A stretch of 64,000 nucleotides of DNA from Acinetobacter wuhouensis (GTDB taxonomy: Bacteria; Pseudomonadota; Gammaproteobacteria; Pseudomonadales; Moraxellaceae), in contig NZ_CP031716.1 in assembly GCF_001696605.3 (NCBI RefSeq), positions 124,001 through 188,000 of the forward strand, in the 5' to 3' direction. A program made the translations under genes and the position numbers. This document shows, in pieces, positions 18,484 to 48,541 of this stretch. The notes under the pieces are model-generated. The model was given only the letters and a program-made list of their open reading frames with translations, had not been told where the DNA came from and did not search any database. Numbering within the stretch: the stretch's first letter is position 1; each line of letters starts with the position of its first letter.

Positions 18484-18831
18484 TTATTTCAATGCTCGAA
18501 TTTCATCTTCATTAAAACCGACAATATATTTTTCATCTAGATTAATGATAGGGCGTTTGATTAAACTGGTATGCGTAGTTAACGCTTTGATCAATTCAGC
18601 TTCACTCGATAAAGCAAGTTGCTGTTCTTGCTCAGTCAATTTTTTCCAAGTTGTCCCTTTTTTATTTAAAACAATATCTTGTCCAATGTTGTCGAGCCAT
18701 ACTTTTACAGTATCAGCATCAATCCCTTGTTTTTTATAGTCATGAAATTCATAGTTCAGCCCAAGGTCGGTGAGTAAATCAAAAGCCTTTTTCATTGAAT
18801 TACAGTTTTTGATTCCGTAAACTTTTAGCAT
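18484..18831 (-). CDS. ArsC/Spx family protein (YffB-like)
   Basis: The 115-residue thioredoxin-fold protein begins MLKVYGIKNCNSMKKA, has a single N-terminal Cys (Cys10), and continues with FHDYKKQGID and LIKRPIINLDEKYIVGF. This matches the YffB/Spx/MgsR branch rather than true ArsC, which carries further catalytic residues. Biochemical function of YffB is unclear; a glutathione-dependent thiol reductase role has been suggested. It is a single minus-strand unit that ends at the shared terminator. Confidence 0.85.
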   Translation of the reverse strand: MLKVYGIKNCNSMKKAFDLLTDLGLNYEFHDYKKQGIDADTVKVWLDNIGQDIVLNKKGTTWKKLTEQEQQLALSSEAELIKALTTHTSLIKRPIINLDEKYIVGFNEDEIRALK

Positions 18832-19125: not shown

Positions 19126-19275
19126 AAGAGAAAACCCGCATCTAATCATCCTGATTATGCGGGTCTCAATACAACGTCCATTGTCACATCCCTGAAAAAT
19201 AAATATAAAATATTTATTTTCTTTTCATCCTACGGCGTCCAATCCTTTTGCTGTCATCCTGACATGTCCCTGTGC
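19126..19275 (-). ncRNA. Candidate CsrA/RsmA-sequestering small RNA 1
   Basis: About 150 bases on the minus strand with eight GGA motifs. Three GGAs sit in hairpin loops: UGUC-AGGAU-GACA (19264-19252), ACAA-UGGACG-UUGU (19184-19171) and AAUC-AGGAU-GAUU (19156-19144), the last forming the top of the terminator. Others are unpaired (ACAGGGAC, AAAAGGAUUGGACG, GUAGGAUG and CAGGGAUGU, the last close to the CsrA SELEX consensus). An AT-rich 11-bp hairpin separates the two halves. The 3' end is an ACCCGCAU/AUGCGGGU stem followed by UUUUCUCUU. This is the layout of CsrB/RsmX/Y/Z RNAs, which titrate CsrA. The 5' end is predicted from the -10 only. Confidence 0.72.
19134..19164 (-). terminator. Intrinsic terminator of small RNA 1
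   Basis: ACCCGCAT (19164-19157) pairs with ATGCGGGT (19141-19134) on the minus strand, with an upper AATC/GATT stem and an AGGAT loop. It is followed by TTTCTCTT. Confidence 0.85.
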
Positions 19276-19281
19276 CGTGGA

Positions 19282-19310
19282 AATATAATGCGCCTTTTCG
19301 GGTGAGGAAA
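19282..19310 (-). promoter_or_regulatory. Putative promoter of small RNA 1
   Basis: On the minus strand TATATT (19287-19282) is a good -10. The -35 seventeen bases upstream is poor (TTTCCT), as is common for activator-dependent promoters. Confidence 0.45.
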
Positions 19311-19333
19311 ACATACGATAACGCGACAAAATT

Positions 19334-19352
19334 TGTAGGTTTTTAACTTATA
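19334..19352 (-). promoter_or_regulatory. Weak GacA-type dyad upstream of small RNA 1
   Basis: TGTAGG (19334-19339), seven bases, CTTATA (19347-19352) resembles TGTAAG-N6-CTTACA with one mismatch per half and one extra spacer base. Its centre lies about 68 bases upstream of the predicted RNA start. Confidence 0.3.
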
Positions 19353-19380
19353 TTCAGCGAACAATTGTTCACTGAATATA
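19349..19380. repeat. 32-bp near-perfect palindrome
   Basis: The sequence centred at 19364/19365 (TATATTCAG...CTGAATATA with core GAACAATTGTTC) is self-complementary over 32 bases except for one pair (19358/19371). It lies downstream of xthA and about 75 bases upstream of small RNA 1. A T-rich run (TTGTTTTT) follows on the plus strand. It could be an operator, or an RNA hairpin at the 3' end of xthA. Confidence 0.7.
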
Positions 19381-19416: not shown

Positions 19417-20235
19417 TTAAATTTGATAATCAATAATGACAGGGGCGTGGTCGCTATACCATTCATCTTTATAGACCCAAGCATTGAGTGTGCGTTGTTT
19501 CCAGTCTGGTGAACAAGCTTGGTAATCAATCCGCCAACCGACGTTTTTAGCACGTGCTTGTCCACGATTCGACCACCAAGAATATACTTCGGCTTCTTTA
19601 CGTACTTCGCGGAAAGTATCGACATAACCTAAGTCATCATAAATGTGATCAAGCCATGCGCGTTCATGCGGTAAACAGCCAGAAGATTTTTGGTTACCTG
19701 ACCAGTTTTTAATATCAATGCGCTTATGTACGATGTTGTAATCACCGCAAACGATGATGGATCTATCTTCATCACGCCATTGTTTGAGGATTTTTGTATA
19801 TTCATCTAAAAAGTGATCTTTACGTGCTTGTGCTTCATCACCTGATGAACCTGAAGGTAAATATAAAGAGCAAATATGAACAGGTTTGTCTAAACCCAAG
19901 TCAAACTCAGCTGTGATAAAGCGTCCCTGACTATCGGCGAGTTCAAAACCTAAACCATTCTGTACAGATTTGAACGGTAAGCGACTGTAGATCGCCGTGC
20001 CTGCATAGCCTGATTTTTCAGCAGGAAATAAATGGGTATGCCAACCTTCGGGTTTAAATTTATCCGTCCATTGTTCATGGGTAATACGACTTTCTTGCAT
20101 ACAGATGACATCTGCATCTGATTTTTCCATCCATTCAAGTATACCTTTTGTGACGGAAGAACGTAAGCCATTTACGTTAATTGAAACAACTCTTAAAATT
20201 TTTTGATCACTTGGATAGCTACTCTTTGGTATCAT
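19417..20235 (-). CDS. xthA: Exodeoxyribonuclease III
   Basis: AP endonuclease/3'-5' exonuclease of the ExoIII family, 272 residues. Motifs: SINVNGLRS (about 17-25), MQESR with the metal-binding Glu, GDYNIVH, WRIDYQACS, and the C-terminal SDHAPVIIDY with the catalytic His. It acts in base excision repair, cutting at abasic sites. A 13-residue N-terminal extension precedes the conserved start, and no ribosome binding site is visible at this ATG, so the true start is uncertain. It is divergent from pyrE with only 40 bp between starts. Confidence 0.94.
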   Translation of the reverse strand: MIPKSSYPSDQKILRVVSINVNGLRSSVTKGILEWMEKSDADVICMQESRITHEQWTDKFKPEGWHTHLFPAEKSGYAGTAIYSRLPFKSVQNGLGFELADSQGRFITAEFDLGLDKPVHICSLYLPSGSSGDEAQARKDHFLDEYTKILKQWRDEDRSIIVCGDYNIVHKRIDIKNWSGNQKSSGCLPHERAWLDHIYDDLGYVDTFREVRKEAEVYSWWSNRGQARAKNVGWRIDYQACSPDWKQRTLNAWVYKDEWYSDHAPVIIDYQI

Positions 20236-38410: not shown

Positions 38411-38489
38411 GTAGTAAGGAATTTATTGATGTGCTTTGGATAAATGTCATTGAAAATAAGTCAAATGCTCTTTAAAATAAACTCACACT

Positions 38490-38635
38490 TCATTGGGGAG
38501 TAGCCGCTATTCATTTTTAAAATGAATAGGTGATGATCAACATAATTGTTCAACAGAACATGGTCATCATAGCAAAGAACCAATTTTGCTGAATTTTCAA
38601 ATATTTCGGCAAAGTTTTGTTGGCAAGACCTTTGA
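38490..38635 (+). promoter_or_regulatory. yybP-ykoY (Mn2+) riboswitch
   Basis: The two conserved loop sequences of the class are present: GGGGAGTAGCC (38495-38505) and GGCAAGACCTTTG (38622-38634). Between them are a perfect CTATTCATT/AATGAATAG hairpin (38507-38529), a 9-bp TGATGATCA/TGGTCATCA stem (38531-38539/38561-38569, one G-U), and an inner TGTTC/GAACA hairpin. The class senses Mn2+ and often controls Mn exporters, which fits the Gdt1/UPF0016 gene downstream. Confidence 0.88.
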
Positions 38636-38672
38636 TTTATCACTCCGCGTTGGATAGGTGACTATTCATATT

Positions 38673-48347: not shown

Positions 48348-48365
48348 TGTAAGTTTAAGCGTACA
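48348..48365 (+). promoter_or_regulatory. GacA-type upstream activating dyad before small RNA 2
   Basis: TGTAAG (48348-48353), six bases, CGTACA (48360-48365). This is the TGTAAG-N6-CTTACA element bound by GacA/UvrY-type regulators with a single mismatch. Its centre is about 65 bases upstream of the predicted RNA start. Confidence 0.55.
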
Positions 48366-48386
48366 AAGATTTAGGGATTTGTCGCA

Positions 48387-48415
48387 TATACAGATCAACA
48401 TCAATTTCTTATTAT
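48387..48415 (+). promoter_or_regulatory. Putative promoter of small RNA 2
   Basis: TATACA (48387-48392), 17 bases, TATTAT (48410-48415): four of six and five of six matches to sigma-70 hexamers. Confidence 0.55.
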
Positions 48416-48421
48416 GGGGAC

Positions 48422-48541
48422 ATAGAGAGCAGGATGCTCCAGAAAAAATAATAAAAGACAGCAAAGGAAGTGCAGGTTCGACAGGAGTCAGACCAAAGCA
48501 TCAAATACGTAAAAAAGCCTGACAGGATGTCAGGCTTTTTT
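48422..48541 (+). ncRNA. Candidate CsrA/RsmA-sequestering small RNA 2
   Basis: About 120 bases with four GGA motifs, each in a hairpin loop: GAGC-AGGAU-GCUC (48427-48439), GCA-AAGGAAG-UGC (48461-48473), GAC-AGGA-GUC extended outward by GGU/ACC (48475-48494), and the terminator hairpin GCCUGAC-AGGAU-GUCAGGC (48517-48535) followed by six U. The linkers are A-rich, as in CsrB/RsmX-type RNAs. A promoter and GacA-type dyad lie upstream. No start codon with a ribosome binding site occurs in it. The 5' end is predicted, not mapped. A further GGGGA lies just before the predicted start and would be included if the start were earlier. Confidence 0.75.

Follow-up and report, generated by a model that had tools for sequence, protein, structure and literature searches.

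A predicted Csr/Rsm-type small RNA downstream of xthA in Acinetobacter, and a second, multi-copy family of GGA-loop RNAs

The window analyzed here, a 64,000-nt stretch of the Acinetobacter wuhouensis genome, carries on its minus strand an xthA-like gene (19417..20235; an ORF of 272 aa with its stop at 19417) and, downstream of it, an ArsC-like gene (18484..18831; an ORF of 115 aa with its start at 18831). An earlier note on this DNA placed a Csr/Rsm-type RNA between the two genes at 19126..19275. The region holds, but the predicted 5' end lies about 4 nt further upstream, near 19279, giving a predicted small RNA of ~153 nt, which we call RNA1, at 19127..19279 (-), with its 3' end in the T run of a terminator. 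Within it we mapped, all on the minus strand, an enclosing stem, ACGGC/GCCGU, that holds GGA sites 1 to 4 (19232..19278), a hairpin UGUC-AGGAU-GACA (19252..19264), an AU-rich hairpin in a fast-diverging linker (19195..19220), and a terminator hairpin with an AGGAU loop (AAUC-AGGAU-GAUU) followed by a T-rich tail (19134..19164). A -10-like element, GCATTATA (19284..19291, -), is conserved in the orthologue alignment, and both it and the terminator were recognized from sequence alone. Farther upstream on the same strand lie a strongly conserved TTGTCG element (19324..19329), CCTACA, which corresponds to the right half of a GacA-type box (19334..19339), and a palindrome, GTGAACAATTGTTCGC (19357..19372), that agrees with GTGAACA-N2-TGTTCAC at 13 of 14 letters. 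The enclosing stem, the AU-rich hairpin, the -10-like element and the upstream elements are absent from the earlier note.

The eight GGA triplets reported for about 150 bases of the minus strand were all counted in 19126-19275, and this is the densest 150-nt stretch on either strand of the window when scanned in 10-nt steps. Density alone is weak, non-significant evidence, which we count against a Csr-type RNA: when the 64-kb minus strand was dinucleotide-shuffled 40 times, eight GGA per 150 nt turned up somewhere in 3 of the shuffles, and the same density was reached in 4.6% of 5000 shuffles of the RNA1 region itself. The placement of GGA in loops, unlike their density, is compelling and rarely arises by chance: 0.02% of 5000 region shuffles place three GGA in loops that four or more Watson-Crick pairs close. 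The CsrA SELEX consensus is RUACARGGAUGU, and the unpaired site said to be close to it, CAGGGAUGU, does agree with it at 10 of 12 positions when three further bases on its 5' side are included.

A DNA similarity search matched RNA1 in 140 of 149 Acinetobacter genomes, with no E value above 3.5e-30 and with nearly all matches running from about the -10-like element to the terminator (141 matches were listed, and the one in G131, 24 bases elsewhere, was left out). From this search 90 loci were taken for study, of which 89 were true and one (L074) spurious. A pattern search in named genomes returned at least 119 stretches, 117 of them from Acinetobacter or a Moraxellaceae bin, including records named A. 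baumannii, A. nosocomialis, A. pittii, A. baylyi, and A. lwoffii; pattern matches in a Verrucomicrobia bin and in Kaistia (L131, L185) showed no match to R1, a model built from the orthologues, and were dropped. For the alignment, 202 sequences passed the search expression, all 89 true loci among them, and yielded 117 distinct aligned orthologues; left out were the spurious L074, three rows cut at the locus end (L161, L167, L193), and one missed by the search expression (L222). RNA1 of the genome itself scores 180.8 bits against R1, which was itself built from these orthologue sequences. Four plasmid records also matched, but we rejected a plasmid-borne RNA1, as three of them are chromosome-sized and the other is 539 kb long.

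Nine Acinetobacter genomes are without a normal RNA1. Three of them have divergent copies, all with many GGA (three copies in G032 at 34-42 bits, one in G077 at 40 bits, and one in G030 at 22 bits); the G030 copy (L272:1501-1634 (-)) has six GGA, shows AGGAU in the loop of its terminator, and is preceded at -73 by a GacA-type box that matches at 11 of 12 letters. In the other six (G014, G031, G097, G131, G143, G144), xthA is present with no RNA1 behind it and no credible copy elsewhere, and the weak R1 matches in G014, G031, G143, and G144 (16-18 bits), which have no more than four GGA and lack a correctly placed box, were dropped. Since these six genomes retain xthA and have no masked bases there, RNA1 seems to have been lost from them, an absence that we count against a Csr-type function.

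Across the 117 orthologues, each of the eight GGA sites is kept in 115-117 (932 of 936 cells in total), and the rows that came from plain DNA similarity search alone, 83 distinct ones, keep GGA in 661 of 664 cells. Individual orthologues carry 8 to 10 GGA (n=117), with an unpaired probability of 0.74 for GGA versus 0.39 for other triplets. As the earlier note had stated, protein genes do not explain the region: no reading frame is conserved in the 117 orthologues, each frame having a stop in at least 114, and their lengths fall into all three classes modulo 3. Judged from this alignment, RNA1 is not a protein gene.

The RNA1 region folds better than its shuffled versions, none of 200 folding as well (z -3.5). 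The enclosing stem is paired in 98.5% of cells, and in 5 of 117 orthologues both partners of one of its pairs have changed, turning GC into AU; the terminator helices are paired in 99.7% and 98.5% (n=117). The first hairpin, UGUC-AGGAU-GACA, is paired in 98.9% (n=117), and its outer pair varies widely: UA in 57, GC in 22, AU in 4, CG in 1, unpaired in 5, and a gap in 28. Three GGA hairpin loops had been proposed, and all are present in the genome itself; this one and AAUC-AGGAU-GAUU are conserved, but ACAA-UGGACG-UUGU is not, being paired in 68.4% of cells with none compensated (117 orthologues). The AT-rich linker between GGA sites 5 and 6 shows the most sequence change in RNA1; it folds at -2 kcal/mol or better in all 117 orthologues (mean z -3.2 against 40 shuffles each), with z below -1 against its own shuffles in 116, and all 15 structures printed were hairpins. 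Of five whole-structure measures, four are higher than in any of 500 shuffles and the fifth was reached by 95 of them, but because related sequences can beat shuffles without any structure, we regard the varied outer pair and the linker as the better evidence. The RNAalifold covariation term is small (-0.35). Several conserved GGA, part of them in hairpin loops, are present, and two of the GGA-loop hairpins show compensatory changes. That the cluster is a chance accumulation of GGA without function would fit the density reached in 3 of 40 shuffled windows, but it is contradicted by genus-wide conservation and by these compensatory changes, and we find it scarcely credible.

RNA1 is very probably a stand-alone Csr/Rsm-type small RNA that sequesters CsrA through its GGA sites. 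According to this model, minus-strand positions 19279-19127 would encode a stand-alone RNA of ~153 nt acting as a protein sponge, in which the eight GGA, some in hairpin loops and the rest unpaired, would bind CsrA dimers and keep them off target mRNAs, and transcription would stop at a terminator that carries one of these GGA in its loop. We infer the transcription of RNA1, its binding and sequestration of CsrA, and the identity of its activator. The genome has a csrA gene (G000:C8:1612661-1612816) encoding an 83-aa CsrA in which L4 and R44 are both present. We had considered csrA loss in relatives as a test of the link between RNA1 and CsrA, but this failed, as csrA is present in 101 of 102 good family genomes. 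Against NF007018, a GacA-like protein reaches 268.8 bits, just under the cut-off of 280, with the next best protein at 80; we count this score below the family cut-off against a Csr-type RNA. We likewise count against it that the Rfam Csr/Rsm families do not match RNA1, either at the gathering score over the window or at E 10 over the region; they do not match its relatives either. Comparison nonetheless gives good support to the earlier proposal that this intergenic stretch encodes a Csr/Rsm-type RNA: the GGA are fixed across the genus, the GGA-loop hairpins are conserved and show compensation, divergent relatives have a GacA-type box, and CsrA is present. Conservation, structure, the box in relatives, and the CsrA and GacA-like genes are all established at the sequence level.

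Alternatively, RNA1 could be a base-pairing (Hfq-type) small RNA, its GGA-rich loops serving as seeds and not as CsrA sites. Invariant loops such as UCAGGAUGA could also be seeds, and A. baumannii has Hfq-associated small RNAs, as sections of PMC12802169 and PMC11472050 describe; the words CsrA, CsrB, RsmA, and xth are absent from the main text of the latter, which speaks neither for nor against base pairing. However, eight separate GGA are kept while many neighboring bases vary, and divergent relatives keep many GGA together with a GacA-type box, so that we consider base pairing improbable and CsrA sequestration the better account.

We also ran model R1 on 119 Moraxellaceae genomes. Outside Acinetobacter it matched at 77-107 bits in three genera, labeled g8, g10, and g12, with at least two copies in two genomes. 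One g8 genome has three near-identical RNA1-like copies and a fourth, divergent one, and four genomes each of g10 and g12 have strong matches, one of the g12 genomes having two copies ~580 nt apart. Weak matches in two genomes of genus g5 lie past csrA on the other strand, at 244 nt in G167 and at 162 and 352 nt in G177; with E values of 0.04 and 2.5, seven GGA each in the stretches shown, and an inverted-repeat box (L287/L301, L288), these are leads only. A weak match in G211, covering one GGA and the terminator alone, was dropped.

These relatives bear on whether RNA1 could be the 3' UTR or an attenuator of xthA and not an independent RNA. In all 89 Acinetobacter loci, xthA lies upstream on the same strand, ending 103-1020 nt from RNA1 (median, 115), with the ArsC-like gene downstream, and xthA likewise precedes the relatives in g10 and one of the g8 copies, by 105-121 nt. 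Against this, conserved -10-like and upstream elements lie between xthA and RNA1, and neither the g12 relatives nor three of the four g8 copies have an xthA match in the flanking stretch examined. Because RNA1 has its own conserved -10-like element and has relatives without an adjoining xthA, a role only as the 3' UTR of xthA is very improbable, which leaves the stand-alone RNA as our preferred reading.

The promoter of RNA1 appears to have a history of its own. A passage of PMC4682653 gives TGTAAG-N6-CTTACA as the UvrY consensus. Of 19 divergent loci, several of them nearly identical to one another, 17 have their best match to it at -73/-72 with 10 or more of 12 letters, against 1.4% of shuffles; these are 14 of the 16 loci from other genera and all three tested from divergent Acinetobacter copies. 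Counted by copy, the box stands at -73 in 4 of the 5 divergent Acinetobacter copies (G032, G077, G030), those in which it could be sought. At typical Acinetobacter loci, 1% of 89 reach 10 of 12 letters, as in shuffles, and we count this absence of the full box, in the window's copy as in the other typical ones, against a Csr-type RNA. A plain GacA-box search in these promoters failed, which became understandable only after the divergent relatives were examined. At -61/-60, where the right half of the box would stand, every one of the 89 loci has its best match to CTTACA, with all six letters matched in 38 loci, five in 44, and four in 7; shortly after it, the column frequencies show the TTGTCG element to be nearly invariant in the 89 loci. 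In 84 of the 89 loci, the palindrome GTGAACA-N2-TGTTCAC is present at -94/-93 with at least 11 of 14 letters, a score that 16 of 1780 shuffles attain, and its exact form occurs in 4 of 12 genomes searched (nine Acinetobacter and three of other families), each time once and at the RNA1 gene.

These patterns suggest that the ancestral RNA1 gene had an activator box of the GacA type, beginning ~73 nt upstream of the RNA, and that the typical Acinetobacter promoter changed, the right half of the box staying in place and the palindrome, centered ~86 nt upstream, being added. Since the right half was kept and a palindrome gained, control is probably exerted by GacA together with another regulator, or by a regulator that replaced it. 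In the stronger form of this idea, RNA1 would be a Csr-type RNA driven in Acinetobacter by a non-GacA regulator via the palindrome, feeding a second signal into the Csr system. The loss of the full box, the retained half-site, the palindrome at a fixed place, and the restriction of its exact form to the RNA1 gene in the genomes searched all fit. The palindrome may, however, be a variant or second GacA site, and no protein is tied to it. We therefore hold this possibility tentatively, somewhat doubting it; it is compatible with CsrA sequestration by RNA1.

RNA1 shares with CsrB/CsrC of Escherichia coli the logic of a GGA-loop sponge and an activator site in the form of an 18-bp inverted repeat, but it is shorter and has fewer GGA. 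The UvrY inverted repeat of E. coli csrB is centered at -183/-182 (in a passage of PMC4682653), about 180 nt upstream, whereas the RNA1-type box is centered ~64 nt upstream. RsmX/RsmY/RsmZ of Pseudomonas, like RNA1, are short RNAs with multiple GGA in loops or unpaired stretches and a GacA-type upstream sequence (for RNA1, in its relatives); in P. brassicacearum, RsmZ has 10 GGA and RsmY 7, according to part of PMC7911923. RNA1 differs from these RNAs in having no Rfam match, in a terminator loop that is itself AGGAU, and in its typical Acinetobacter box, half kept and with a palindrome added.

Rsm RNAs of the same proposed class have been predicted in the same genus, in Acinetobacter ADP1 and A. 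baumannii. Kulkarni 2006 is reportedly the earlier source of the ADP1 predictions and may contain the RNA1 locus itself. Passages of PMC5568370 describe RsmA-regulating small RNAs of ADP1 predicted by earlier work, add two, list the coordinates 25035-24917 and 2690560-2690698, and give GGA in single-stranded stretches as a mark of such RNAs. These two predictions (119 and 139 nt) could not be tied to RNA1 or to the second family described below, although their lengths would fit the latter. For A. baumannii, part of PMC7366521 lists [RsmX, RsmY, RsmZ] by genome inspection only, citing Kulkarni 2006. Since Csr RNAs were predicted in ADP1 before, RNA1 belongs to a known class and has perhaps already been predicted there. 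The titles, abstract beginnings, and passages searched do not name the RNA1 locus, which is no proof of absence, and the AbsR probes in the portion of PMC3976366 compared by eye do not resemble it. What the present analysis adds to the ADP1 predictions is genus-wide evidence, a predicted structure, and a proposed promoter history. CsrA is described in part of PMC12802169 as essential for A. baumannii on rich media, and in A. baylyi the phenotype of GacA/GacS loss needs CsrA, with the intermediate RNAs left unnamed in the passages of PMC12455638 consulted. RNA1 is a candidate for this missing Gac-CsrA RNA, with coordinates, structure, and promoter elements now given genus-wide.

A second candidate RNA in the window (48348..48541, +) is a predicted member of a second, multi-copy GGA-loop family, here called family 2. 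Along the plus strand it comprises a GacA-type box, TGTAAGTTTAAGCGTACA (48348-48365), a -10-like TATTAT (48410-48415), an AGGAU hairpin (48427-48439), an AGGA-loop hairpin (around 48480-48489), and a terminator (48511-48541) in which the AGGAU loop of RNA1 recurs, as the earlier note had observed. In 29 aligned copies, four GGA are kept (in 27-29 of 29 each), whereas a fifth, present in relatives of the window copy, lacks such conservation; changes on both sides were found in 13 of 21 pairs. The family-2 box has at least 9 of 12 letters at -62/-61 from the model start in 29 of 29 copies (shuffles, 7.2%) and at least 10 of 12 in 26 of these 29 (shuffles, 0.6%), the tested copies being nine from the genome itself and 20 from the best-scoring part of the list. 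One copy (L310:1513-1630) aligned end to end with Rfam RsmY, at 20.4 bits and E 0.31, far below the cut-off of 57.

Model R2 of this family finds nine credible copies in the genome itself, seven on the large contig, an eighth on a contig of 30.8 kb, and the ninth on one of 12.3 kb; one of the nine scores 60.8 bits and has 3 GGA only. Two of the 11 matches were not counted as credible, one for overlapping a copy on the opposite strand and the other for its score of 37 bits. RNA1 and the window copy had been read as a redundant or differently regulated pair. A pair is too small a description, since the partner is one of about nine family-2 copies, but the upstream elements do differ, with a full GacA-type box in family 2 and a half-site plus palindrome at RNA1. 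Among 60 Acinetobacter genomes, 58 have an R2 match, with a raw median of 6 and a maximum of 14, counts that include some overlapping opposite-strand matches. Tandem arrangements of two to four copies within ~3 kb also occur (L296, L297, L299, L300, G121:C7:1035652-1037256). Multi-copy Csr RNAs as such are already known: up to five tandem rsmX are reported for P. syringae (in part of PMC7911923) and RsmZ1-7 for Azotobacter vinelandii (in part of PMC7366521). Family 2 resembles these in being multi-copy and partly tandem, but it also occurs in plasmid records and reaches up to 14 raw matches in one genome.

Family 2 matched 240 plasmid records, 239 from Acinetobacter and one from Klebsiella, at least two of them chromosome-sized; 53 match over at least 80% of the query, and among the 30 matches listed of the 240, none had an annotated feature beneath it in a gene table without RNA genes. 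RNA1, taken together with this many-copy, partly plasmid-borne family, suggests that Csr control in Acinetobacter is larger than thought. Whether the Csr sponges of the genus make up a system of unusual size that is in part mobile is to us nearly an even question, leaning slightly to the negative. Such a system would consist of RNA1, with its GacA box half replaced by a new operator, and the covarying family 2, with its GacA-type box, in tandem and on plasmids, and plasmids might then tune host CsrA via RNA and not via a CsrA homologue. Should the copies on plasmids prove active, small RNAs would be the means by which mobile elements adjust a global regulator. A record labeled "Acinetobacter phage" (CAKLQF020000013.1, L305) has four family-2 matches, but acnA and prpC lie nearby in the one region read, and it is therefore probably host DNA. 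Elsewhere in the window, a Mn2+ riboswitch (yybP-ykoY, RF00080) lies at 38483-38637 (+), with a score of 63.7 bits.
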